From Georgenia sp. M64 (GTDB taxonomy: Bacteria > Actinomycetota > Actinomycetes > Actinomycetales > Actinomycetaceae): 64,000 nucleotides of DNA. Position 1 is the first letter of the stretch. Each line of letters begins with the position of its first letter. Both the position numbers and the translations under genes were made by a program. Under the pieces are notes generated by a model, which was not told the DNA's origin, searched no databases, and was given only the letters and a program-made list of their open reading frames with translations. Shown one piece after another: positions 43,177 through 56,575 of this stretch. The stretch spans positions 248,001 through 312,000 of the forward strand of contig NZ_CP145809.1 of assembly GCF_038049925.1 (NCBI RefSeq), in the 5' to 3' direction.

Positions 43177-44766
43177 TCAGCGCACGGGGTGGACCCCGCG
43201 CAGCTCGGCGTCGTCGTCGGGACGGTCCTCCCGGCGAACCTGGGGCCGGTCCTCCGGGCGGTCCTCGAGGCGGTTCTCCGGGCGGGACACGGGCCCGACG
43301 CGGGAGACCTCCTCCCAGCGCTTGTTGGTGTCGTGGATGCCCATCTCGACGCTGGTGAGCTGGACCTGCACGGGGATGCCGGGCCGGCCGCCGACCTTGA
43401 TGAGGAACTTCCCGCGCCCGGGTGGTGCGGTCTCGCGGTTGTGGATGGGGTCCCACGCCGGCGGGTCCTGCCAGCCGATGAGCATCTCCTGCTCGGCCCG
43501 CGAGAGCGGCACGGCCTGGGTGAGCATGGCCATCTCCGCCCCGGGCAGGCCGCCGGCGATGACCATCCCCGAGCGCTCGACGAATCCGCGGGCCTTCATG
43601 CGGTCCTGCTCGGCGGGCAGCGCCAGGAGGTCCGACATCGTGTGCGAGATCATTGCCGTCCCCACGCCGCGGGTGCGGTTGAGGCGGGTGAGGGCGTCCA
43701 CCCGGTCCACGAGGCCCCGGCCGGCGCGCAGCACCCGCCACAGCTCGTCGAGGACGACGAAGTAGTGCCGGCGCGGCTCCACCCCGGCGTCGGCGAGGGC
43801 GTTGGCGACGTTGACCATGCCGAACCCGGCGGACCAGCACGCGAGCATGACGGCCGCCTGGAGGTCGGTCTGGGCGTCGTCGATGTGCGAGACGTCGTAG
43901 ACGACGGGCCGGTCGCGGCGCATCGGGCTCGACGTCGGCCGGGAGAACGTCCGGCCCAGCCGGCCGCCGTCGACGAGACCGATGAGCGAGGCCTCGAGGT
44001 TCTCCGTCAGCGACTGGTACCGGTCGATCGAGCCGCGGTCGAGCGCCACCTGGCGCACCGGGTCCGGCGCCTCCCGGATGATGCGGAGCAGGTCGGGCAG
44101 GACCGGCACCCCGTCGTGCCGCTCGTCCAGCACCGTCAGGGCCCGGTCGAGGATCGTCTCCTCGCGGTCCCCGGGCGGGGCGGCGCGCAGGATGGTCAGC
44201 AGCGAGGAGACCATCGCCAGGCGGCGGTCGTGGGCGTCGGCGAGGACCATCTGCCGGGCCGAGCCGGTCAGGCGCTCCGCCGCGGAGGTGGCCTCGCCGG
44301 GGTCGAGCACGTTGATGTACCCGCGTGACCCGCCGAGGGAGATGACCTGCCCGCCGAGGGCCTCGATGAGGTCGACGTAGTCGGGCTTGAGGTCGCCCAG
44401 GACGAGCGGCATGACCCCGTACCCGGCCAGCCCGGCGGCCATCCGGCGCACGAGCGTGGACTTGCCCAGGCCCGGCAGCCCCAGCACGAACGCGGACGGG
44501 TTGGAGATGAGGTTCGCGCGCTGGAACCACGAGACCGGGTCGCAGCACACCGTGGCGCCGGAGATCATGTTCCGGCCCAGCGGCACCCCCACCATGGGTG
44601 TGCCGGTGCCGATCGCGTAGGGCCACAGCCCGCACACCTGCCGCGTGGAGCCGCGCCACTCCGGGACGGGCTGGACGACCTTCGCCGCCCCGCGGCCCAG
44701 GCCGGCCCAGCCGCGGGGGCCCGCCCGGCGAGGCCCGCCGGCGTCGTCCTTCGCCCTGGTGCTCAC
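43177..44766 (-). CDS. VirB4/TraC-like ATPase of a conjugation-like cluster
   Basis: Encodes 529 aa from GTG 44766. Walker A GLPGLGKST lies near residues 96-104, Walker B is YFVVLDELWRVL, and the pattern GVGTAMISHTMSDLLAL is the helicase-like motif of VirB4/TraG-type motors. At 529 aa it lacks the N-terminal half of a usual VirB4 (about 800 aa); the preceding SCO6880 protein may supply it. It is the last gene of a minus-strand arm starting at 49759. The tail is highly charged and repetitive (RPENRLEDRPEDRPQVRREDRPDDD). Confidence 0.83.
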   Translation of the reverse strand: MSTRAKDDAGGPRRAGPRGWAGLGRGAAKVVQPVPEWRGSTRQVCGLWPYAIGTGTPMVGVPLGRNMISGATVCCDPVSWFQRANLISNPSAFVLGLPGLGKSTLVRRMAAGLAGYGVMPLVLGDLKPDYVDLIEALGGQVISLGGSRGYINVLDPGEATSAAERLTGSARQMVLADAHDRRLAMVSSLLTILRAAPPGDREETILDRALTVLDERHDGVPVLPDLLRIIREAPDPVRQVALDRGSIDRYQSLTENLEASLIGLVDGGRLGRTFSRPTSSPMRRDRPVVYDVSHIDDAQTDLQAAVMLACWSAGFGMVNVANALADAGVEPRRHYFVVLDELWRVLRAGRGLVDRVDALTRLNRTRGVGTAMISHTMSDLLALPAEQDRMKARGFVERSGMVIAGGLPGAEMAMLTQAVPLSRAEQEMLIGWQDPPAWDPIHNRETAPPGRGKFLIKVGGRPGIPVQVQLTSVEMGIHDTNKRWEEVSRVGPVSRPENRLEDRPEDRPQVRREDRPDDDAELRGVHPVR

Positions 44767-44779
44767 GTTGCGCGCCCCC

Positions 44780-46300
44780 TCACAGCCGGTCCCGCACTTC
44801 GCTGGGCAGCGAGACGTGCCGGGGGAGTACGAGCCCGAGGGGCAGGGCGGCGGCGAACGCGGAGTCCTGGGAGCCGTACACCGGCCGCAGCCGCAGGCGT
44901 GCGGTGGCGGCGAGGTTCTCCACCGCGGCGCGGGCGTCCATCTCCCGGCCGGTGTCCATGACGGTGGCGGTGACGAGCATGCCGAAGTTGACCAGGCCGG
45001 CCCCGGCGGCCTCCTCCTGGGCGGTCAGGGCGGCGGCCCGGGTGGCCAGGACGTCACGCGCGGTGGGCTTGTCCGTGGCGGTCTGGCGGAACTGGGCGGC
45101 GCGCAGGTCCGCCTCGACGATCGCCGCGGCGGAGGCGGCGTCGATGGGCCGGTAGAGGAGGGTGACGCGCTTGCGGGCGATGTCGCGGTGCGGGGCGAGG
45201 AGCCGGGCGAGGATCGAGGACTGGACGTTGCCGCGCGGCGCACCGGTCATCGCCCAGGTGACGGACAGCCCCGAGTCGTGGCGGTAGGCGTCCCACGACG
45301 TCTCGTGGGCGGTGGGGCCGACGTCGGACCACGTGAGCGGCGGGACCTCCCCGGTCGCGTGGGCCTCGTCGATGGCGGTCGCCGCGGCGGGGTCGTAGGC
45401 GACCCGCACGATCTCGCACAGCTCGAGGGCGTCGACCGGGTGGGCCGGGCCGGCGCCGGTGGCCTGGAGCTCCGCGGTGAGCGCGGGCAGTCGGGCGCCG
45501 AGCTCGCGGGCGAACTCCGCGGGCTTGCGCCGCTTGCCGCCGCCGCGGGCGGCAGTGAAGGTCAGGGCCACGTACGCGCGGACCGTGGAGGAGCCGGCGG
45601 GGTAGTCCCGCACGGTCTCGGCGAGCAGGCGCCGGGCGAACTCGGGGGCGTCGGGGTCGAGGTGGGTCGTGACCTCGCGGCGCAGGCGCGTGCCCGTGTC
45701 GGGCGCGGTCTCGACCGTCACGGACGCGGCGATGATGCCGGGCTCGTCCCCGAGGTTCGCCAGCCACAGCCCCCAGTCCGAGACCCAGGCGTCCACCTGC
45801 TCCTCGTCGACAAGGGCCGCGCCGTCCGGCTCGGTGCCGATGACGACGGTGTACGACGTCGTCGCCGGGACGTAGACGAGGGCGAACGGCCGGCCGTAGG
45901 AGTCGTGGTGCTCGGTCAGGCGCGACGCCGCCGCGAGGCCGGGCAGCTGGTGGGTGCCCCACGGGGTCCGGCCCAGGGGTCCTGAGCGGTAGAGGTGCTC
46001 GCCGGCCGTGCGCTGGCGCCACCACCCCACGCGGGCGGTGCCCTTGTCGACGGCGTTCATCCCGTGCTTGTCGCGCACCGCGATGGAGAGCAGGACGACG
46101 CCGAGGGCCGCGGCCACGAGCAGCGCGGTGATGAGGTCGGCGAGCATGACGACCAGGACGACGACGATGAGCCCGCCGAGCAGGATCATCGTGCCGACGG
46201 TGCCCAGGCCGAGCAGGCCCGGTGACGTCGGGCGACGCCAGTTGCCGTAGGTCCGGGGCGCGTGCCCGGCGGGGTCAGCGGCTGCTGCCACGTCGACCAT
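44780..46300 (-). CDS. SCO6880 family protein (VirB3-plus-VirB4 N-terminus-like)
   Basis: Encodes 506 aa from ATG 46300. It starts RTYGNWRRPTSPGLLGLGTVGTMI, the family's signature, followed by two close transmembrane helices (residues about 30-75), then a soluble domain (RVGWWRQRTAGEHLYRSGPLG...). The gene overlaps the preceding one by 26 nt. In many actinobacteria SCO6880 homologues stand beside a VirB4-like ATPase and a multi-helix membrane protein. The two-helix start resembles PrgI/VirB3, and the soluble part may correspond to the N-terminal half of VirB4; that is an inference. Confidence 0.85.
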   Translation of the reverse strand: MVDVAAAADPAGHAPRTYGNWRRPTSPGLLGLGTVGTMILLGGLIVVVLVVMLADLITALLVAAALGVVLLSIAVRDKHGMNAVDKGTARVGWWRQRTAGEHLYRSGPLGRTPWGTHQLPGLAAASRLTEHHDSYGRPFALVYVPATTSYTVVIGTEPDGAALVDEEQVDAWVSDWGLWLANLGDEPGIIAASVTVETAPDTGTRLRREVTTHLDPDAPEFARRLLAETVRDYPAGSSTVRAYVALTFTAARGGGKRRKPAEFARELGARLPALTAELQATGAGPAHPVDALELCEIVRVAYDPAAATAIDEAHATGEVPPLTWSDVGPTAHETSWDAYRHDSGLSVTWAMTGAPRGNVQSSILARLLAPHRDIARKRVTLLYRPIDAASAAAIVEADLRAAQFRQTATDKPTARDVLATRAAALTAQEEAAGAGLVNFGMLVTATVMDTGREMDARAAVENLAATARLRLRPVYGSQDSAFAAALPLGLVLPRHVSLPSEVRDRL

Positions 46301-47864
46301 CTCCCTTGCTGGTCAGGCGGGGTGGGCCGCCCGTCCCGTTCGTGCCGTGCCCGTTGCCGTGCCCGTTCACGTCGGGACCATCCTGCCTCTCGGGGGCCGC
46401 CGTCGCACCGCCGTCGTCCGCCTCGGCGCTCTCGCCGTCCTCACCGGGGCCGCCGGCGGGGACCCGGCCGTCCGGGGCGATGGCGTCGCGCGCGCCGGCC
46501 GGGACGGGCAGCACGGGTGCCCCCTGGGTGGCCGCGCCGGCCGCGGCTGCGCCGGGCACCGGTGCGGCGCCGATCTCGGCGCGGGCGCCGGACGGACCGA
46601 GCTGCGTCACACGGCCGGCGGTGCCCACCGCACCGGCGGGTCCGGCGCCGCCGGCGCGTACCCGGGGGACCGGGACGGCGCCGGTGGGCAGTGCGGCGGA
46701 GGTCGACGTCGAGGTGGTCGTCGTCGCGGGCCCGGCCGTGCCGGTCACGGTGCCCACCAGCGGGGCCGCGACGCTGATGAGCGCCGGCAGCGCGAGCAGG
46801 GCCAGCGTCATGAGGATGATGCCGGTCAGGACCGGCACGAGACCGGAGCCGTCGTCGGCGAAGACGTTCTGGTCGCGCAGCTGGAAGGCGGTGGCGTAGA
46901 CGATCGCGACGGCCGGCTTGTACAGGACGAACGCGATGATCCAGGCGACCACCCGGTGGAACCAGGTGCGACCGATCGCGGTGTTGGTGAAGGAGGCCGA
47001 GAGCGGGAAGATCCCCGCGAGGATGACGAGCATCGCCGCGCGCAGGACCATGAGCATGATCTGGGCGAAGGAGACCGCCAGCGCCGCGAGCCCCAGGACG
47101 ATGACGATCAGGACGCCGAGGTCGTCGGAGAAGGTGAGCATCGCCTCGACCTGCGTGCCGAAGTCCGCCCCACCCGTGACCCGCTCGAGCAGCCAGGCCG
47201 CGAAGGAGTCCGCGGCGACGACGGCGAGCCCGATGACGGTCAGGCCCGCCCCGGCGACGACGACGAGCGTGAGGAGGGAGCGCACGAGGTCCCGGCCGGG
47301 GGCGGCGCGCTGCTCCCAGGCCATCTTCGCCCCGGCCACCATCACCGAGAGCACGGCCATCGCCGCGGTGAACCACCACAGCGCGTTCTGCGTCGCCGCC
47401 GCCGGTCCGCCGCCGGAGGCCGCGAACCGCTCGGGCGGGACGAGGGCGCTGACGATGGCCGAGGCGGACGAGACGAGGATGACGGCGCCGAGGACGACCC
47501 CGAGGCGGCCCAGCTGACCCTCGGCCTCCCCACGCCGGCCCTTGAGGGCCATCGCCGCGCCGAGGGCGATGATCGACATCACCGCGATGCCGAGCGAGAC
47601 CCACAGCACCCAGGACAGGACGGTGTTGACCGTCTCCACGCTCCCGGGCGCCACCTCGCCCGGGGCGACCACCGGGGCGTCACCGTCGGTGAGCGACGGC
47701 GTGACGATCGACGTCCACATCGTCCCCAGCGAGCCGAGCGTGGTGTCGAGGGCCTCGCGCACGGCCCCGGCGAGCTGCTCGAGCGCGCCCGTGCCGCCGT
47801 CGGTGGTCCAGCTCGAGGTGGTGCAGGCGACGTCGAGGGGGTCGCAGCCGGTCCGGGTGCTCAT
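46275..47864 (-). CDS. VirB6/TrbL-like multi-helix membrane protein
   Basis: Encodes 529 aa from ATG 47864, which shares one base with the previous stop (TGATG). After a soluble Cys-containing start (TGCDPLDVACTTSS) there are eight or so membrane helices, including LVRSLLTLVVVAGAGLTVIGLAVVAADSFAAWLLERV and LMVLRAAMLVILAGIFPLSASF, the core pattern of TrbL/VirB6 channel proteins. The last 150 residues are a disordered Ala/Gly/Pro/Thr-rich tail with Asn-Gly-His repeats. It probably forms the inner membrane channel of the secretion-like complex. Confidence 0.82.
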   Translation of the reverse strand: MSTRTGCDPLDVACTTSSWTTDGGTGALEQLAGAVREALDTTLGSLGTMWTSIVTPSLTDGDAPVVAPGEVAPGSVETVNTVLSWVLWVSLGIAVMSIIALGAAMALKGRRGEAEGQLGRLGVVLGAVILVSSASAIVSALVPPERFAASGGGPAAATQNALWWFTAAMAVLSVMVAGAKMAWEQRAAPGRDLVRSLLTLVVVAGAGLTVIGLAVVAADSFAAWLLERVTGGADFGTQVEAMLTFSDDLGVLIVIVLGLAALAVSFAQIMLMVLRAAMLVILAGIFPLSASFTNTAIGRTWFHRVVAWIIAFVLYKPAVAIVYATAFQLRDQNVFADDGSGLVPVLTGIILMTLALLALPALISVAAPLVGTVTGTAGPATTTTSTSTSAALPTGAVPVPRVRAGGAGPAGAVGTAGRVTQLGPSGARAEIGAAPVPGAAAAGAATQGAPVLPVPAGARDAIAPDGRVPAGGPGEDGESAEADDGGATAAPERQDGPDVNGHGNGHGTNGTGGPPRLTSKGDGRRGSSR

Positions 47865-48892
47865 CAGGCCCCCGACCAGACGGTGTAGCCGGCGAGGTTG
47901 GGGATCTGCGCCGGCGGGGTGGGCAGCGTGCCGATGTCGGTGAGGCGGACCTTCCAGTCCCCGCCCTGCCAGAGGAGGTCGACGACGAAGCTGCCCAGGG
48001 CGCCGTTGTCCAGGCCCAGGGCGATGTCGACGCTCGCGGAGGCGCCGTCGTAGGCGATGACGTGGAAGCCGCGGATCTGGTACCGGGCGACGGTCGCCGG
48101 CAGCGGGACGGGTGCGGGTGCCGGCGGGGCGGTGGTGGCTGCCGTGGGCTCGGTGGTGGCGCCCGTTGCCCCTGCGGTAGGCGTCGCGGTCACGGCGGCT
48201 GAGTCCGCTGCCGCGGCGTCCGCGGCCTCGGCGTCGAGGCGTGCCACGGCGGCGTCACGGCCGGGCCCGGTCGCGGTGAGCTCCGCCGTCGTGCGCGGCA
48301 GGAGGGCGTCGACCGACCCCATCGCGACGATGTTCGCCGCGGCGAGCAGCGCGCCGGTGGGGCTCTGGGCGTAGCAGGACCGGAAGCCGTCCGGCTCCTT
48401 CACGCCGGGGCCGGTCCCCGGCAGGGCCGGGGCGGCCACCGTGCCCACCAGCTCCCAGGCCACGCCCTCGGGCGCCCGGGTGACCGTGCCGTCCGTCTGG
48501 GCCGGGCCCATGCCGCAGACGCTCGGCTCACCCGCGGCGGCGGGGTCGGCGGTGTCGTCGGTGCCGGCCGGCGGCGCAGCGCCGGTGGCGCCGTCGCCGG
48601 GCTCGCCGTCGTCGGCGGGTCCGTCCGTCGCGCCGTCCGCGTCTGCGGTCGGGTCGTCGCTGCCGTCGGTGGTGGGGTCGTCGCCGGGCTCACCGGTGGG
48701 CTCGCCGGTGGCGGCGGCCCCGTCCGGCCCGCCGGTGGCCGGCGCCGTCGCGGCCGGCGGGGCGCCGTCGTCGCGCCGCTCGTTGGCGACGGCGAGCCAC
48801 ACGCCGAGGACGACGACGGCCACGACGAGGACCGCGGAGACGAGGAAGACCGGCCGAGCCCACACGCTGCGGTCGTCGAGGTCGTCGGCCAT
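47864..48892 (-). CDS. Membrane-anchored protein with possible VirB8-like domain
   Basis: Encodes 342 aa from ATG 48892. One transmembrane helix (residues about 15-35) follows a short cytoplasmic start; then come about 90 residues of Asp/Gly/Thr/Pro-rich linker, then a folded domain (PSVCGMGPAQTDGTVTRAPEGVAWELVGTV) and a C-terminal part YQIRGFHVIAYDGASASVDIALGLDNGALGSFVVDLLWQGGDWKVRL that looks like an NTF2/VirB8 fold. Length of the linker suggests it spans the cell wall. VirB8 is an inference from topology and cluster position. Confidence 0.7.
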   Translation of the reverse strand: MADDLDDRSVWARPVFLVSAVLVVAVVVLGVWLAVANERRDDGAPPAATAPATGGPDGAAATGEPTGEPGDDPTTDGSDDPTADADGATDGPADDGEPGDGATGAAPPAGTDDTADPAAAGEPSVCGMGPAQTDGTVTRAPEGVAWELVGTVAAPALPGTGPGVKEPDGFRSCYAQSPTGALLAAANIVAMGSVDALLPRTTAELTATGPGRDAAVARLDAEAADAAAADSAAVTATPTAGATGATTEPTAATTAPPAPAPVPLPATVARYQIRGFHVIAYDGASASVDIALGLDNGALGSFVVDLLWQGGDWKVRLTDIGTLPTPPAQIPNLAGYTVWSGA

Positions 48893-48903
48893 GGGGCGCC
48901 TGC

Positions 48904-49182
48904 TCAGGCGAGGGCTCCGACGAGGAAGTACGACGCCGAGATGACGATGACCCCGGCCAGGGCCATGCCGATCCGGCCCAGGTGCTCCCCGCCCTCACCG
49001 CGGCGGGAGCTGATGCCCATCATCGCGCCGGCAACGATGAGGCCGAGGACGCAGATGCCCAGGGCGATCCACTTGGTCCACGCCAGGACCTCGAGGAACC
49101 CCTCGGTCCCGGGTGGCGCCTCCCCCTCGCCCGGGTTGGGCACGTTGGCCAGGAGGGCCAGGGCGGCGGCGGGCAGCACCAT
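48904..49182 (-). CDS. Small two-helix protein, VirB2/TrbC-like
   Basis: Encodes 92 aa from ATG 49182 (GGGGGG upstream). A hydrophobic start (PAAALALLANV) is followed by two transmembrane helices (WIALGICVLGLIVAGAMMGI and GMALAGVIVISASYFLVGAL) joined by a short basic, Gly-rich loop SSRRGEGGEHLGR. This is the topology of VirB2/TrbC pilin-like subunits. It stands 5 nt after the DUF6668 gene and 11 nt before the next gene, within one operon. Confidence 0.78.
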   Translation of the reverse strand: MVLPAAALALLANVPNPGEGEAPPGTEGFLEVLAWTKWIALGICVLGLIVAGAMMGISSRRGEGGEHLGRIGMALAGVIVISASYFLVGALA

Positions 49183-49186
49183 GTGC

Positions 49187-49759
49187 TCAGACCCCCCGGC
49201 CCGGCAGGAGCGAGTCGAGGTCGTGAATCAGCCGGGTGAGCTCGCGCGGGACCGGCCGCGGCTCGTCGCCGAGGCGCCAGGCCTCGACCCAGGGCAGGTG
49301 CCAGACCCGCGGCACCCCGCCGCTGACGAGGTCGGCGAGCTCGCGCAGCGCCCGGGGGAGGCGGCCGGGGGCGTCGGCGAGCAGGACGAGCCCGACGAGC
49401 GTCACGCCGGGCACCGAGCCCGAGGCCCACTGGGTGGCGGCGAGCTGGGTGGCGCGCAGGCCGGTGAGGTGGGTGCGGGCGACGAGGACGACGTCCTGCG
49501 GGCGGGAGAGGTCCGAGGGCACGGGCCAGGCATGCCCGGCTGCGGCCGAGCCCGCGACCGCGCCGGCCAGGGTCGTCTCCCCGGCGCCGCCGTGGGTGCC
49601 GAGCCACCACGGGGCGGCGCGCTCGTGGCGCTCGCGGGCGGCGAGGCCCTCGGCGGGGGCGCGGACGCCGCGCTGGGGCGTGGCCGGGCCGGTGGGCAGC
49701 GGGAAGTAGTCGCCGGCCGCAGTCGAGCGTGCCCTTGTCCCTTCCGGGTGCCTGCCCAT
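49187..49759 (-). CDS. DUF6668 protein with altered P-loop
   Basis: Encodes 190 aa from ATG 49759; a GTG at 49807 would add 16 residues. WWLGTHGGAGETTLAGAV resembles the deviant Walker A of ParA/MinD-type ATPases, but Glu stands where the catalytic Lys should be. VVLVARTHLTGLRATQLAATQWASG and VTLVGLVLLADAPGRLPRALREL, with VPRVWHLPWVEAWRLGD, match the DUF6668 family found beside SCO6880 genes. Probably a non-hydrolysing ParA-like accessory. First gene of the minus-strand arm. Confidence 0.75.
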   Translation of the reverse strand: MGRHPEGTRARSTAAGDYFPLPTGPATPQRGVRAPAEGLAARERHERAAPWWLGTHGGAGETTLAGAVAGSAAAGHAWPVPSDLSRPQDVVLVARTHLTGLRATQLAATQWASGSVPGVTLVGLVLLADAPGRLPRALRELADLVSGGVPRVWHLPWVEAWRLGDEPRPVPRELTRLIHDLDSLLPGRGV

Positions 49760-49908
49760 ACCAACCCCATTCGCGCCGACACCTGCCCGGTGCACCAGTA
49801 CGGACACCCATCATGCGTCCTTCTGGGATCATCGTGTCGTAGAACGGGATGCGAGCACAGATGTAAATGGTCCCGATCTGGCCCCCAAAATGAGGGAGCG
49901 TGCGAGCG
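49760..49908. promoter_or_regulatory. Divergent promoter region of the conjugation-like cluster
   Basis: This 149-bp gap separates the minus-strand arm (ending at 49759) and the plus-strand arm (from 49909) and must hold both promoters. It is slightly AT-richer than the genes (TGTAAATGGTCCCGATC near 49862). I cannot place boxes with confidence. AGGGAG (49893-49898) is the ribosome binding site of the plus-strand gene. Confidence 0.5.
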
Positions 49909-50451
49909 ATGGGCTCGGTGCGTGCGGGCACGGCGGTGGTGTCGCTCCTGCTCGCGGGCGCGCTCCTCGGCGCGTGCTCGGACGAGCCCGGGTCCCCGGC
50001 GCCGTCGGCGCCCGCCACCACCGCCGCTCCCGCGCCGCTGCCGGCGGTTCCGACCGCCACCGGGGAACCCATGGAGGGTGATCTCGGCTCGGCGACCGGG
50101 GCGCCCGCCCCGGTCTGGGACGAGGAGTCGCGGGCCGCCGCCGTCGCCACCGCGACCGCGGTGATGACCGCCTACGCCCGGCCCGCGCTCGACCCGGACG
50201 CCTGGTGGGGAGAGTTCTCGGGCTTCCTCAGCCCCGCCGCGCAGCAGGACTACCAGTGGGTCCAGCCCGCCTCGATCGCTGCCACCACGGTCGGGCCGGG
50301 GCCGGCCGTCCTCGTCGACGAGTCGAGCGTCTACCTCGCACGGGTCGAGGTACCCACTGACGCCGGGACGTACCGGGTGCTCCTCAGCCGTCAGGACGGG
50401 CCCACGTCGTGGCTCGTCGAGCGCGTCGAGCCGCCCGAGGGGGTGGCGTGA
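49909..50451 (+). CDS. Lipoprotein of the conjugation-like cluster
   Basis: Encodes 180 aa from ATG 49909; GTG 49900 is an alternative. The signal ends LLGAC with the lipid Cys at residue 23, followed by a Pro/Ala/Thr-rich linker and a domain of about 100 residues (ATATAVMTAYARPALDPDAWWGEFSGFLSPAAQQDYQWV...). The alpha-beta pattern suggests an NTF2-like fold as in VirB8 and its relatives. It is translationally coupled to the hydrolase gene (TGATG). Exported and membrane-bound by prediction. Confidence 0.72.
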   Translation: MGSVRAGTAVVSLLLAGALLGACSDEPGSPAPSAPATTAAPAPLPAVPTATGEPMEGDLGSATGAPAPVWDEESRAAAVATATAVMTAYARPALDPDAWWGEFSGFLSPAAQQDYQWVQPASIAATTVGPGPAVLVDESSVYLARVEVPTDAGTYRVLLSRQDGPTSWLVERVEPPEGVA

Positions 50452-51518
50452 TGCGCCTCCGTGCCAGGACGGTCGTCACGCTCCTCGTCGGGTTCCTCGT
50501 CGCCTCGCTCGTGGGACTCGTCGGGCTCGTGCTGTACATGGACGCCGACCGCTCCCCGCTGGCGGACTGCAACGTCACCGGAGGGTCGGTGCGGATCGTC
50601 GACGCCGCCGGGGTCGAGACCGCAGAGATCTCCGGGTACAGCGGCGTCCAGCTCGCCAACGCCGCGGCGATCGTCAACGCGGGCGCTGACCTCGGCCTCG
50701 GCGCCCGGGACCAGACCATCGGCGTCATGACCGCGATGGGGGAGTCCGGCCTGCAGGTGCTCGACCACGGCGACGCCGTCGGCCCCGACTCCCGCGGACT
50801 GTTCCAGCAGCGCGACAACGGCGCCTGGGGCACCTACGAGCAGCGGATGGACCCCACCGCGTCCGCGACCATGTTCTTCCAGGCGCTGTCGCGACTGCCG
50901 GACCGGTGGTCGCTGCCCCCGACGATCGTCGCCCACCGCGTGCAGATCAACGCCGACCCCTATCACTACGAGCGGTACTGGCCGGCCGCCGTCGCGGTGG
51001 TCACCGGCCTGGCCGGGCAGGACCTCGACGCGATCGCCGCCCTCGCCGGACCATCCCCCTGCAGCGCCATCTCCGCCGCCGGGCTGACCGCCGACGGCTG
51101 GACCGTCCCCCTGCTGGGCACCGTGCGCTACACCTCGGCGTTCGGCATGCGGGTCAACCCGGTCACCGGCGTTCGCCAGCTCCACTCCGGCGCCGACCTC
51201 GCCGCTCCCGACGGCACCCCGATCTACGCCGTCGGTCCCGGGGTCGTCACCATCGCGGGGCCCTCGAGCGGGGGGAACACCGGTTACATGGTGGCGGTCG
51301 ACCACGGCGGCGGGGTGCAGACGAGGTACGTCCATCCCTGGCCGTCCGGCATCCTCGTGCGTGTGGGGGACCAGGTGACCGCCGGTCAGCAGATCGCCCG
51401 CGTGGGGTCCTCCGGCAACTCCACCGGCCCGCACCTGCACTTCGAGGTCCGCGTCAACGGCATCCCGGTCGACCCGATCCCCTTCATGGGGCAGCTCGGC
51501 GTCGGCCTGGCCGTGTAG
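50451..51518 (+). CDS. Cell-wall hydrolase: transglycosylase-like plus M23 peptidase
   Basis: Encodes 355 aa from ATG 50451. A transmembrane anchor (residues about 8-29) is followed by a lysozyme-like region, GVMTAMGESGLQVLDHG...SRGLFQQR, the Glu-Ser and GLFQQR pattern of VirB1-type transglycosylases, and then a C-terminal M23 endopeptidase with HSGADLAAPDGTPIYAVGPGVV and GPHLHFEVRVNG (zinc ligands HxxxD and HxH). The fusion would cut both glycan and peptide of peptidoglycan, making room for the secretion-like complex through the thick wall. Confidence 0.87.
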   Translation: MRLRARTVVTLLVGFLVASLVGLVGLVLYMDADRSPLADCNVTGGSVRIVDAAGVETAEISGYSGVQLANAAAIVNAGADLGLGARDQTIGVMTAMGESGLQVLDHGDAVGPDSRGLFQQRDNGAWGTYEQRMDPTASATMFFQALSRLPDRWSLPPTIVAHRVQINADPYHYERYWPAAVAVVTGLAGQDLDAIAALAGPSPCSAISAAGLTADGWTVPLLGTVRYTSAFGMRVNPVTGVRQLHSGADLAAPDGTPIYAVGPGVVTIAGPSSGGNTGYMVAVDHGGGVQTRYVHPWPSGILVRVGDQVTAGQQIARVGSSGNSTGPHLHFEVRVNGIPVDPIPFMGQLGVGLAV

Positions 51519-51978: not shown

Positions 51979-54900
51979 ATGTCCAACGAAGGGCACACCG
52001 GCGTGACGACGGCGGGCGTGGACGCGCCCCCCCGACGCCCCGCCCCCGAGGTCCCGACCGGCACGGGCGAGAACCCGCCCAGCCCGGCAGACGGCGCCTC
52101 CGCCCCTACCGCGTCCCTGTCCGCCCCCGAGCTGCAGGTGCCGGTCCACCCCGTCCGGGTCGTCACGGCCGCGAGCCTCTTCGACGGCCACGACGCCGCC
52201 ATCAACATCATCCGGCGCATCCTGCAGTCGCAGGGCTGCGAGGTCATCCACCTGGGGCACAACCGGTCCGTGGCCGAGGTGGTCGACGCCGTCGTCCAGG
52301 AGGATGCCCAGGCGGTCGCGGTCTCGTCCTACCAGGGCGGGCACCTGGAGTACTTCGCCTACCTCGTCGACCGGCTCAGCGAGGTGGGCTGTGGCCACGT
52401 GCGGGTGTTCGGCGGCGGCGGGGGCGTCATCGTCCCGGAGGAGATCGCCGTCCTCGCCGAGCGCGGCGTGCGGATCTTCTCCCCGGGGGACGGGCAGCGC
52501 CTGGGCCTGCCCGGCATGGTCAACACGATCGTCGCGGCCGCCGACGTCGACCCCCTGGAGGCCGCCGAGGGCAGTCCCCCCGCGCGGGACGACCGACGCG
52601 CGCTCGCCCGCACGATCACCGCCCTCGAGCTGGGCCGGCTCGACGACGCGGCGCTGACCGCCCTGCGCGCCGCCGGGTCCGCGCGGCCGGCCGCGGTCCT
52701 CGGCATCACCGGGACCGGCGGGTCGGGCAAGTCCTCCCTCACCGACGAGCTCGTCCGGCGCCTGCGCCTGGACCAGGGCGGCGACCCGCGGGTCGCCGTC
52801 CTGGCCGTCGACCCCACCCGGCGTCGTGGCGGCGGCGCCCTGCTCGGCGACCGCATCCGCATGAACGCCCTCGACGAGGGCACCTCCTTCCGCTCCATGG
52901 CCACCAGGGGGGCCGAGCTGCCCCCGGCGCTGGACGACGTCGTCCTGGCCTGCCGGGCGTGGGGCGCCGACGTCGTCGTCGTCGAGACGCCGGGGATCGG
53001 CCAGGGTGACGCGGGCATCGTCGGCCACGTGGACGTGCCCGTCTACGTCATGACGCCGGAGTTCGGGGCCGCCAGCCAGCTCGAGAAGATCGACATGCTC
53101 GACCTCGCAGACGTCGTCGTCATCAACAAGTTCGAGCGGCGCGGCGCCGAGGACGCGCTGCGCGACGTGCGCCGACAGGTCGCCCGCAACCGGGAGGTCT
53201 GGGACCCGTCCGCGGAGCTGCCGGTCTTCGGCACCATCGCCTCGCGGTTCAACGACGACGGCGTCACCGCCCTGTACCTGCACCTCCGTGACCGCCTCGT
53301 CGCGGCCGGCGCCCGCCTCGGACCCGGTCGGCTCGAACCGGTCCCCGGCCGGGTGTCCACCCGCGTCGCCCCGATCGTTCCCGCCCACCGGGAGCGCCAC
53401 CTCGCCGAGGCGGCCGAGGCGGTCCGCCGCTACCACGACGACACCCGGCGGCAGGCGACGGCGGCCCGCCGGCTCCAGCGCCTGGAGGACGTCCGTGCCC
53501 AGCTCGCCGCGGACCAGGCCGACACCTCCGACGTCGACGCGCTCCTCGCCGGTGCGCGGGCCGCCGTGGACGACGACGCCACCGCCCTCCTCACCGGGTG
53601 GCCGGACGCCGCCGCGGCGGCGCGGGAGATCGAGCCGGCGCGCTCCCTCGCCGGCACCCCCGTCCCCCGGCTGGCGCTGCCCCGGCTGCACGACGACGGC
53701 GACCTGCTCCAGTGGCTGCGGGCGGAGCACCTGCCCGGGCACTTCCCGTACACGGCCGGCGTCTTCACCCGACGCCGCGTGGACGAGCACCCGGCCCGCA
53801 TGTTTGCCGGCGAGGGGGACCCCGCCCGCACCAACCGGCGCTTCCACCTCCTCGCGGAGGGCCAGCCCGCGACCAGGCTGTCGACCGCTTTCGACTCGGT
53901 CACCCTCTATGGGTTCGACCCCGACGAGCGCCCCGACGTCTACGGCAAGGTCGGCAACTCCGGTGTCTCGGTCGCCACCCTCGACGACATGAAGGCCCTC
54001 TACGACGGGTTCGACCTGTGCGCGCCGGGCACGTCGGTCTCCATGACGATCAACGGACCGGCACCCGCGGTCCTGGCGATGTTCCTCAACACCGCGATCG
54101 ACCAGCGCCTGGCGGCGTTCGAGCGCGAGCACGGCCGTCCGCCGGGGGCCGACGAGGCGGCGGAGGTCCGGGCTGCGGCGCTCCGTGACGTGCGGGGCAC
54201 GGTCCAGGCCGACATCCTCAAGGAGGACCAGGGGCAGAACACCTGCATCTTCTCCACCGAGTTCTCCCTGCGGTGCATGGCCGACGTCCAGGAGTGGTTC
54301 ATCGCCCACGAGGTGCGCCGCTTCTACTCGGTCTCCATCAGCGGGTACCACATCGCGGAGGCCGGCGCGAACCCCATCACCCAGCTCGCCTTCACCCTCG
54401 CCAACGGTCTGACCTACCTCGAGGCCTACCTCGCTCGCGGCATGGCCGTGGACGACGTCGCCCCGAACCTGTCGTTCTTCTTCTCCAACGGCATGGACCC
54501 CGAGTACGCGGTCCTGGGCCGGGTGGCGCGCCGGGTCTGGGCGATCGTCCTGCGGGAGCGGTACGGGGCGAACGAGCGCAGCCAGCGGCTGAAGTACCAC
54601 GTCCAGACCTCGGGGCGGTCCCTGCACGCCCAGGAGATGGCCTTCAACGACATCCGCACCACGCTGCAGGCCCTCATCGCGCTCAACGACGCCGCCAACT
54701 CCCTGCACACCAACGCCTACGACGAGGCCGTCACCACCCCCACCGAGGAGTCGGTGCGCCGCGCCCTGGCCATCCAGCTCGTCATCGGCAAGGAGTGGGG
54801 CCCGTCGACGAACGAGAACCCCAACCAGGGCTCGTTCCTCCTCGGCGAGCTCACCGAGCTGGTGGAGGAGGCGGTGCTGGCCGAGCTCGAGAGGATCTCG

Positions 54901-55308
54901 GCACGCGGCGGCGTCCTGGGCGCCATGGAGACCGGCTACCAGCGCGGCCGGATCCAGGACGAGTCGATGCTCTACGAGCGGCGCAAGCACGACGGCTCGC
55001 TGCCCGTGGTCGGCGTCAACACGTTCGTCGCGCCCGACCGGCCCGCCGGCGAGCCGGACGCCGCGCACGGTCCGCGCCGGCTCTCGCGATCCACGGAGGA
55101 GGAGAAGCGGGGCCAGATCGCCCGGCTCCGGGACTTCCAGGCCCGGCACTCCGCGGAGCGGCCCGCTGCTCTCGAGCGGCTCCGCCGGGCCGCGCTGGCC
55201 GGGGACAACGTCTTCGACGTCCTCATGGACGCCGTGCGCGTGTGCTCGCTGGGGGAGATCACGCAGGCGCTGTTCGACGTGGGGGGCCGCTACCGGCGGA
55301 ACGTGTAG
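51979..55308 (+). CDS. icmF: Fused isobutyryl-CoA mutase with G-protein chaperone
   Basis: Encodes 1109 aa, the usual IcmF length. Domains: B12-binding with SLFDGHDAAINIIRR (cobalamin-coordinating His71) over residues 58-195; a MeaI-type GTPase chaperone with P-loop GTGGSGKSS (245-253) and VVVINKFERRGAEDAL; and the large mutase barrel from about 560, with TRLSTAFDSVTLYGFDPDERPDVYGKVGNSGVSVATLDDM. It interconverts isobutyryl-CoA and n-butyryl-CoA using adenosylcobalamin, with some members acting on pivalyl- or isovaleryl-CoA. The GTPase part guards the cofactor. It appears leaderless and monocistronic. Confidence 0.97.
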   Translation: MSNEGHTGVTTAGVDAPPRRPAPEVPTGTGENPPSPADGASAPTASLSAPELQVPVHPVRVVTAASLFDGHDAAINIIRRILQSQGCEVIHLGHNRSVAEVVDAVVQEDAQAVAVSSYQGGHLEYFAYLVDRLSEVGCGHVRVFGGGGGVIVPEEIAVLAERGVRIFSPGDGQRLGLPGMVNTIVAAADVDPLEAAEGSPPARDDRRALARTITALELGRLDDAALTALRAAGSARPAAVLGITGTGGSGKSSLTDELVRRLRLDQGGDPRVAVLAVDPTRRRGGGALLGDRIRMNALDEGTSFRSMATRGAELPPALDDVVLACRAWGADVVVVETPGIGQGDAGIVGHVDVPVYVMTPEFGAASQLEKIDMLDLADVVVINKFERRGAEDALRDVRRQVARNREVWDPSAELPVFGTIASRFNDDGVTALYLHLRDRLVAAGARLGPGRLEPVPGRVSTRVAPIVPAHRERHLAEAAEAVRRYHDDTRRQATAARRLQRLEDVRAQLAADQADTSDVDALLAGARAAVDDDATALLTGWPDAAAAAREIEPARSLAGTPVPRLALPRLHDDGDLLQWLRAEHLPGHFPYTAGVFTRRRVDEHPARMFAGEGDPARTNRRFHLLAEGQPATRLSTAFDSVTLYGFDPDERPDVYGKVGNSGVSVATLDDMKALYDGFDLCAPGTSVSMTINGPAPAVLAMFLNTAIDQRLAAFEREHGRPPGADEAAEVRAAALRDVRGTVQADILKEDQGQNTCIFSTEFSLRCMADVQEWFIAHEVRRFYSVSISGYHIAEAGANPITQLAFTLANGLTYLEAYLARGMAVDDVAPNLSFFFSNGMDPEYAVLGRVARRVWAIVLRERYGANERSQRLKYHVQTSGRSLHAQEMAFNDIRTTLQALIALNDAANSLHTNAYDEAVTTPTEESVRRALAIQLVIGKEWGPSTNENPNQGSFLLGELTELVEEAVLAELERISARGGVLGAMETGYQRGRIQDESMLYERRKHDGSLPVVGVNTFVAPDRPAGEPDAAHGPRRLSRSTEEEKRGQIARLRDFQARHSAERPAALERLRRAALAGDNVFDVLMDAVRVCSLGEITQALFDVGGRYRRNV

Positions 55309-55420: not shown

Positions 55421-56575
55421 TCAGCGCGCGGAGTGGCGCCCGGTCGCGCGCGCCGCCGCCTCCTCGGCCGCCTGGGCCTCCTCCGCCTCCTCGGCGAGGC
55501 GCTGCTCGCGCCGGGCGACGAGCACGTCGGGGAGGTTCTCGGCCAGGGCGTGCCCGTCCCGGCCCTTGACGGTCGGGACGCCGTGCTCGGCGTTGGCGTT
55601 GCGCAACGGGTTCGGCTCCTCGATGGGCTCGGCGGTGCCGTGGGAGAGGACCTGCTCGGCCGGGGTCAGCTCGCGGATCGCGATGGCGGCCACGTGGCGG
55701 GGGTGCTCGCGGGCGACCTCGTCGTAGACCATCGGGTCGTGCTGGCCGTCGTCGCCGACGAGCAGCCACCGGATGTCGGGGTAGGTGATCATGAGGTTCC
55801 GCAGCTGGGTGCGCTTGTGCTCCACGCCCGAGCGGAACAGGCCGGTCGGCGTCGGCCCCCAGTCCGTCATGAGCATCGGGCCCTCGGGGTAGCCGTGGGT
55901 CCGCATGAACCGTCGCAGGTTCGGCACGGTGTTCCACGCCCCGGTGGAGAGGTAGAAGACCGGCGCCGTGGGGTTGTCCTCCAGGACGGTGCGGTACAGC
56001 TCCGCCATCCCCGGCACGGGCTTGCGGGTGGTGGTGTGGCGCACGAAGGTGTTCCAGGCCGCGATGAACATGCGGGGGAGCATCGTGACCATGATCGTGT
56101 CGTCGATGTCGGAGACGATGCCGGCGCGGACCTCGGGGTCCACCACGAGCACCTTCGCGGTGACGGGCTCGGCGGCCCGCGCCTCGAGGACCACCTCGTG
56201 CCAGCCGGGGCCGAGCCCGTGGTCGCGGACCATGACGTCGATGTAGCCCCCGCGGTCCGTCGTCGTGCGGATCACCTGGCCGCCCGCCCGCACGACGACG
56301 GGAAGGAAGCCCGGCTGTGCGGTGAAGAACGAGCGCCAGCCGCGCTGGGCCTCGGCGGCGACGTTGATCGGCCCGACCGGCGCGATCTCCTCGCCCTCGT
56401 CACCGGCCTCGCCCGGGTCCGACATCACCACCCGGCCGAGCACGTGCAGGCTCTGGACGGAGCCGTAGCCCGTCAGGCCGATGGTGCGCGGGCGCCAGCC
56501 CTTGCTCCGGAGGTACCGGACGGAGCTCCGGTTGACGGCGTCGTCGATCGTGCCGGCGATGCGGGAGAGGCCCAT
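55421..56575 (-). CDS. App1/DUF2183-type phosphatase
   Basis: Encodes 384 aa from ATG 56575; AACGTA (TACGTT on the coding strand, 56584-56589) lies 8 nt upstream, suggesting leaderless expression. The catalytic loop SDIDDTIMVT carries the DxDxT of the HAD-like phosphatidate phosphatase App1. FYLSTGAWNTVPNLRRFMRTHGYPEGPMLMTDWG and WLLVGDDGQHDPMVYDEVAREHP are its conserved companions. The N-terminal 130 residues form a beta-rich domain. It may dephosphorylate a lipid or other phosphate ester; the substrate is unproven. The tail is Ala/Glu-rich coiled coil. Confidence 0.87.
   Translation of the reverse strand: MGLSRIAGTIDDAVNRSSVRYLRSKGWRPRTIGLTGYGSVQSLHVLGRVVMSDPGEAGDEGEEIAPVGPINVAAEAQRGWRSFFTAQPGFLPVVVRAGGQVIRTTTDRGGYIDVMVRDHGLGPGWHEVVLEARAAEPVTAKVLVVDPEVRAGIVSDIDDTIMVTMLPRMFIAAWNTFVRHTTTRKPVPGMAELYRTVLEDNPTAPVFYLSTGAWNTVPNLRRFMRTHGYPEGPMLMTDWGPTPTGLFRSGVEHKRTQLRNLMITYPDIRWLLVGDDGQHDPMVYDEVAREHPRHVAAIAIRELTPAEQVLSHGTAEPIEEPNPLRNANAEHGVPTVKGRDGHALAENLPDVLVARREQRLAEEAEEAQAAEEAAARATGRHSAR

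Follow-up and report, generated by a model that had tools for sequence, protein, structure and literature searches.

We analyzed a window of 64,000 nucleotides of Georgenia sp. M64 (contig NZ_CP145809.1, bases 248001–312000 of a single-contig genome of 4.18 Mb), in which eight genes at positions 43177–51518 form the probable core of a type IV secretion system (T4SS). The cluster is intact and consists of two divergent groups. Its origin lies in a mobile element whose DNA-processing genes have since been lost, and it is now resident on the chromosome. On the strength of its sequence, we favor, with some reserve, the idea that the cluster is a domesticated T4SS core, whose product would be a structure that bears pilin, crosses the wall and serves some purpose other than conjugation.

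The minus-strand group contains the genes of a DUF6668 protein, a pilin, a VirB8-like protein, VirB6, SCO6880 and VirB4, and the plus-strand group contains those of a lipoprotein and an M23 peptidase. The coordinates and content that the first-pass annotation of this DNA had given for two divergent operons hold, with identities that are partly sub-threshold; the lipoprotein gene had been missed. The VirB4-like ATPase (43177..44766, minus strand; 529 aa) comprises the C-terminal motor half only and matches NF045971 partially, under the cut-off (E 5.2e-11). Its profile covers residues 415–758 alone of the 796 residues of pCF10 VirB4 (hhalign probability 70%, E 4e-5), and against the PDB sequences a VirB4 profile of 4 rows gave 7 weak matches to clamp loaders and others (best E 0.007). 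Two motifs, GLPGLGKS and VVLDE, which we take to be Walker A and Walker B, are both intact in the alignment. The cluster thereby possesses the VirB4 ATPase with intact nucleotide-binding motifs by which a T4SS core is recognized.

The adjacent gene encodes an SCO6880 family protein (44780..46300, minus strand; 506 aa), which scores 581 bits on NF042935, far above its cut-off of 60 bits (E 1.8e-174). Its predicted structure, a poor model with a pLDDT of 46.5, displays two N-terminal helices of membrane length followed by a mixed domain. Searching 350,542 PDB chains with this model in Foldseek returned R388 VirB4 as the top three matches (E 0.024, 0.060 and 0.060) and a chain of the R388 inner-membrane structure as the fourth (E 0.23); nothing in the PDB reached E <= 0.001. 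This structural hint contrasts with the sequence-profile comparisons, in which a link between SCO6880 and VirB4 is absent: the SCO6880 profile (20 rows) found no match among the PDB sequences up to E 10, and hhalign gave no link to PrgI or PrgJ. Based on the model, SCO6880 is probably a VirB3-like membrane part, formed by the two N-terminal helices, joined to the N-terminal half of VirB4. SCO6880 and the C-terminal half would then probably make up a split VirB4. The split is not peculiar to the Georgenia cluster, because both genes are separate in the relatives read too.

The VirB6/TrbL-like polytopic membrane protein (46275..47864, minus strand; 529 aa) and the VirB2-like pilin (48904..49182, minus strand; 92 aa) were assigned by sub-threshold Pfam scores (PF04610, 18.6 bits against a cut-off of 25.9; PF18895 T4SS_pilin, 19.3 bits against 26.6) and by a position and gene order common to annotated plasmids. 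The pilin is conserved across chromosomal and plasmid copies. The VirB8-like protein (47864..48892, minus strand) has an N-terminal helix, a long low-complexity linker and a C-terminal domain of probable NTF2-like fold. Its low-confidence model (pLDDT 54.5) gave weak Foldseek matches, several titled NTF2-like (best E 0.028, none at E <= 0.001), and its profile had one match among the PDB sequences, at E 1.1. The DUF6668 protein (49187..49807, minus strand; PF20373, 44.4 bits against a cut-off of 27) has 206 aa when read from GTG, with an ATG at codon 17. On the plus strand, the lipoprotein gene (49909..50451; 180 aa) is an open frame with a lipobox-like start, as read by eye, and overlaps the start of the M23 gene. 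The lipoprotein has no match in Pfam, and homologues occur in all five Georgenia chromosomal copies and also in relatives. The membrane-anchored M23 endopeptidase (50451..51518; 355 aa; PF01551, E 2e-30) resembles a lysozyme in its N-terminal region, as judged by eye, and the histidine and aspartate positions that we presume to be its M23-site motif are conserved in the alignment.

The genes that process DNA are missing from this set. At E 1e-6, reference VirD4, relaxase, MobC, integrase, recombinase, AAA, HTH and DUF4913 proteins have no homologue in the window and no match in the neighborhoods read for the four remaining Georgenia copies; serine recombinases were searched through a plasmid reference protein alone. 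The whole genome lacks a PF03432 relaxase, this being the relaxase family searched. VirD4 is absent beside the cluster, both in the window and in the regions of the other bearers, in a search directed at VirD4 and not at TcpA-type coupling proteins. All 16 PF00589 integrases of the genome lie outside the window, which contains no tRNA either. The absence of relaxase, VirD4 and integrase noticed in the first-pass annotation is thus confirmed. Flanking repeats with an integrase, which that annotation had named as the signature of a mobile element, were not seen: the longest repeats have 11–13 bases, against 15–17 in shuffles (G000 and G003, G006 being without a shuffle control). Relaxase, linked coupling protein, and integrase with flanking repeats, by which a conjugative plasmid or an integrative and conjugative element (ICE) is recognized, were therefore all missing from the cluster. 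A VirB4 cluster without relaxase and coupling protein, as far as PF03432 and the plasmid reference proteins can reveal, is what is called a MOBless, VirD4-less T4SS.

In order to follow the cluster through the genus, 9 genomes were compared, one per species. SCO6880 relatives are present in 6 of them, although that of G007 is of ICE type and just 31% identical. The cluster of the remaining five genomes (G000, G001, G003, G005, G006) lies near the gene of an APP1-type phosphatidate phosphatase (55421..56575 in the window, minus strand; PF09949, E 2.9e-50), and the SCO6880 copies there are 82–100% identical. Within the genus, this outcome answers in the affirmative the synteny check proposed in the first-pass annotation. 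The APP1 gene itself is found in all nine genomes. The cluster is directly beside it in G003 and G005 and about 2.5 kb off in G006; the G005 cluster is split across the ends of two contigs and was joined by inference. A fused isobutyryl-CoA mutase gene, IcmF (51979–55308), separates the cluster from APP1 in G000 and G001, and not in G003, G005 and G006.

The APP1 locus of G004, which lacks the cluster, is likely an empty site, as its flanking genes nearly abut. There, 3 bases separate the APP1 gene from a gene that we take to be of DUF1801 type, and an NrtR-type gene comes next. In G003, this DUF1801-type gene is reached only past the cluster and another ~1.35 kb, and an NrtR-type gene lies beyond the cluster in G000. 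G007 and G008 have no cluster by APP1, and the neighbors differ. The absence from G002 rests on a whole-genome search, because the contig ends ~1.1 kb past the APP1 gene.

A tree of SCO6880 and VirB4 (50 rows, 974 columns) revealed that the five Georgenia copies form a clade with support 1.0. Its sister (support 0.986) is G127, on a contig with VirD4 and relaxase, and the VirD4-bearing rows include three named plasmids. The cluster proteins are thus nested among VirD4-bearing copies, some of them on named plasmids, and together with the likely empty site this indicates an origin from a mobile element. The first-pass suggestion that the cluster is not a mobile element remnant is therefore not supported in that form. 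The same annotation had read the base composition as evidence against recent gain. The G+C content of the cluster (0.73–0.77) does resemble that of its neighbors, and it is weak evidence, because the plasmid relatives also come from actinobacterial hosts. Relatives were found in 446 of 72,556 plasmid records, and none of 120 pattern matches on viral contigs encodes one. Host trees part the bearers from the non-bearers (support 97 for rpoB and APP1 together, 64 for rpoB alone, 0.98 for APP1 alone), and the simplest history is one gain followed by vertical descent.

The lack of VirD4 is unusual among relatives. At the non-resident loci with the SCO6880–VirB4 pair, VirD4 adjoins in 17 of 20, being in pieces on contig C1 of G003; the other three are G013 and G014, without VirD4, and G052, cut by a contig end. 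In the search of the order, VirD4 stands beside the pair in 20/20 loci taken from 88 matching genomes, and in the search of the class it was present at 27 of the 29 best loci from other genomes, two of the 29 repeating loci already counted and both the order and class counts mostly leaving out weaker matches. Of the two class exceptions, G908 has an internal TAG and is followed by a contig end after about 1 kb; G658 has an internal TGA, and a second cluster at a distance of some 7.5 kb does have VirD4. G013 and G014, which belong to another genus of the family, carry a stripped cluster with the same eight genes and common flanking genes. They group with four other copies of their own genus (support 0.858), apart from Georgenia, which argues for an independent loss in which the same eight genes were kept. 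Between VirB4 and the flank, G014 has a stretch (L090, G014:C1:1609332-1613421) with, by eye, two similar lipoprotein-like genes and two others; these four extra genes have no match in the 20-kb region of G013.

We notice similar sets at a greater distance. The class search also supplied 18 further regions of 18 kb each, namely G658 and 17 distant matches. Ten of these regions are chromosomal VirB6–SCO6880–VirB4 sets without a VirD4 match, and their best matches are ICE-type proteins. Distant chromosomal sets without a VirD4 match (L198-L201, L215, L203-L206) occur in actinobacteria with large genomes, and several of them occupy the same chromosomal site in more than one genome. In a genus-level set of 6, one non-VirB gene is common to all, and in a family-level set of 4, six flanking genes are common to three. 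Perhaps these distant sets resemble clusters of the cmd or SCO6871-6884 type. Taking both stripped lineages together, we put forward tentatively, and below even confidence, that transfer machines of plasmids became chromosomal envelope machines without a coupling protein several times over in Actinobacteria, each time independently. The same eight genes, kept in both lineages, would then be the minimal monoderm T4SS for a pilus that crosses the wall and has a role in the cell other than DNA transfer.

A role in cell division or chromosome segregation, as in Streptomyces, is one alternative to a pilin-bearing surface structure. The chromosomal, transfer-like cmdABCDEF genes (SCO4126-4131) and SCO6871-6884, which encode VirB4- and SCO6880-type proteins, occur in several Streptomyces; deletion of cmd impairs sporulation and chromosome segregation, and the transfer of an SLP2-derived plasmid is not significantly changed (PMC2782261). 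The 10 distant sets without VirD4 favor such a role. However, the Georgenia cluster is on a different branch from these sets, and cmd, with its developmental phenotype, probably belongs to another branch as well, the cmd sequences themselves standing outside the comparison. Georgenia is also not known to form spores, which weighs against this alternative, and we consider it unlikely.

Our preferred explanation, the domesticated core, can be put as a series of steps. In the ancestor of one Georgenia subclade, a transfer region of plasmid or ICE type would have entered the chromosome next to the APP1 gene. The relaxase, VirD4, DUF4913, AAA and HTH genes would then have been lost, in an order that we can only infer, and the envelope part would have been kept and inherited vertically. 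In the present-day cell, the M23 enzyme may open the wall; VirB6, the VirB8-like protein, the lipoprotein and SCO6880 may form the membrane and wall scaffold; and VirB4 may energize the assembly of a pilin structure through it. Since the cluster has no coupling ATPase, it is unlikely to export DNA from the cytoplasm by conjugation. Either the surface structure itself would be the product, acting in adhesion or contact, or molecules that have already crossed the membrane would leave by a two-step path. This last step is suggested by the parts present and by analogy with the diderm cases.

The same parts might instead serve DNA uptake, with the pilin structure capturing outside DNA and a separate ComEC channel importing it. 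Helicobacter ComB likewise keeps homologues of VirB2–VirB4, VirB6 and VirB8 without VirD4, according to a recent review (PMC12857230). We regard an uptake role of this kind as improbable.

A third alternative is that visiting plasmids or ICEs, which bring their own relaxase and VirD4, use the cluster in trans as a transfer channel supplied by the chromosome. The first-pass annotation had advised looking for VirD4 elsewhere, and one was indeed found: the single PF12696 (VirD4) protein of the genome is encoded at 1.56 Mb, 1.26 Mb from the cluster, inside a separate ICE-like element (L014/L015, C1:1559350-1573940). This element has an integrase, VirD4, and distant VirB4, SCO6880-like and M23 genes of its own; excisionase-like, paired pilin-like and ParB-like genes were also named there by eye. 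VirD4 is present somewhere in the genome of 5/5 bearers, versus 2/4 non-bearers. However, a plasmid-type VirD4 occurs among the bearers in G003 only, where it follows the transfer genes of the element that carries it, and the VirD4 of the other bearers matches the ICE-type reference best. The benefit of such a channel to the host is also hard to see, and we think this alternative very unlikely.

All eight frames are open throughout the five bearers, with the one exception of the G005 VirB6 gene, which reaches the end of its contig. In seven pairs of copies, dN/dS is 0.03–0.21 for VirB4 and 0.03–0.23 for SCO6880, with 0.06–0.34 for the flanking APP1; for M23 it is 0.05–0.38 in ten pairs. Between G000 and G006, VirB4 has a ratio of 0.16 versus 0.15 for rpoB. 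In five more distant pairs, dS reaches 0.46–0.53 and VirB4 is still 87–91% identical. These ratios point clearly to purifying selection on the core, and less so on the outer parts. With one position in five genomes, open frames and a constrained core, the first-pass view of a resident chromosomal machine is borne out in this respect. A decaying remnant of an integrated plasmid, retained by chance, would fit the mobile origin, the absence of several genes that relatives carry and the faster evolution of the outer parts, but it is highly improbable given the open frames and the identity that VirB4 retains in the distant pairs, and decay may look more like the apparently broken copy on contig C1 of G003. 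In this plasmid-type copy (L025), VirB4 is divided into two pieces and SCO6880 contains a stop, apparently through decay or a sequencing fault; G003 carries an intact resident copy besides.

Several observations weigh against the domesticated core. The identities of VirB6, the pilin and VirB8 are sub-threshold or of low confidence. VirB6, VirB8, DUF6668 and the lipoprotein evolve faster, with highest dN/dS values of 0.48–0.70. The chromosomal ratios mostly exceed those of seven mobile pairs (0.02–0.13 for VirB4, three of the pairs having dS >1), and partly relaxed constraint would therefore fit too. Because every bearer has a VirD4 elsewhere, use of a foreign coupling protein is possible. Finally, a gain with one later loss is also possible, because the host tree is unrooted.

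Between the two gene groups lies a putative divergent promoter region (49808..49908), a weak assignment based on a CATCATG...ATCATSGTG-like motif common to the chromosomal copies. The motif, at 49808-49839, is present in five Georgenia chromosomal copies, with a spacing that varies by 1–2 bases between genomes; ATCATG and CATGAT are both missing from the divergent region in 9 of 11 other copies compared. Elsewhere in the window, a TPP riboswitch (RF00059) is located at 2388-2496, unrelated to the cluster.

The closest known systems are transfer regions of actinobacterial MOBP plasmids. pRE117-1 and pYJND-1 have the same genes in the same divergent order, and plasmid SCO6880 is up to 71.5% identical to that of Georgenia; the stretch of pS16-2 that was read begins at SCO6880. 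In contrast to the chromosomal cluster, near which none of these has a match, all three plasmids carry VirD4, DUF4913, relaxase and MobC, and pRE117-1 and pYJND-1 carry AAA ATPase and HTH genes as well. Ptl, Brucella VirB, ComB and Bartonella Trw resemble the Georgenia cluster in having a VirB core without coupling protein (PMC12857230) or relaxase (PMC3158045), but they are diderm systems. The T4SSs of Patescibacteria are monoderm-type, chromosomal, mostly relaxase-less and often equipped with VirB2-like pilins; they differ in belonging to another phylum, in being tied to epibiotic growth, and in that a VirD4 is encoded far from virB4 in many of the genomes (PMC12102498).

MOBless T4SSs are frequent and often thought to be protein secretion systems (PMC3158045). 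In the section of a 2025 T4SS review on such systems, the VirD4-less examples come from diderms, with Patescibacteria as a special monoderm case (PMC12857230), and actinobacterial T4SS-type ICEs were sought by integrase, VirB4, VirD4 and relaxase (PMC3218068). With MOBless T4SSs, cmdABCDEF and Patescibacteria as precedents, the kind of system is therefore already known; a description of a Georgenia-type cluster was not found in searches of the open-licence PMC literature. The variant seen here is a core of the plasmid-type branch that is resident and has no coupling protein, and it has arisen at least twice. A stripped and conserved monoderm core in culturable actinobacteria would let the VirB part be studied by itself: its task could be to build pili, to move molecules that are already outside the membrane, or to serve the cell wall. 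Because the same DNA-processing genes were lost on two independent occasions, the parts worth keeping stand out.

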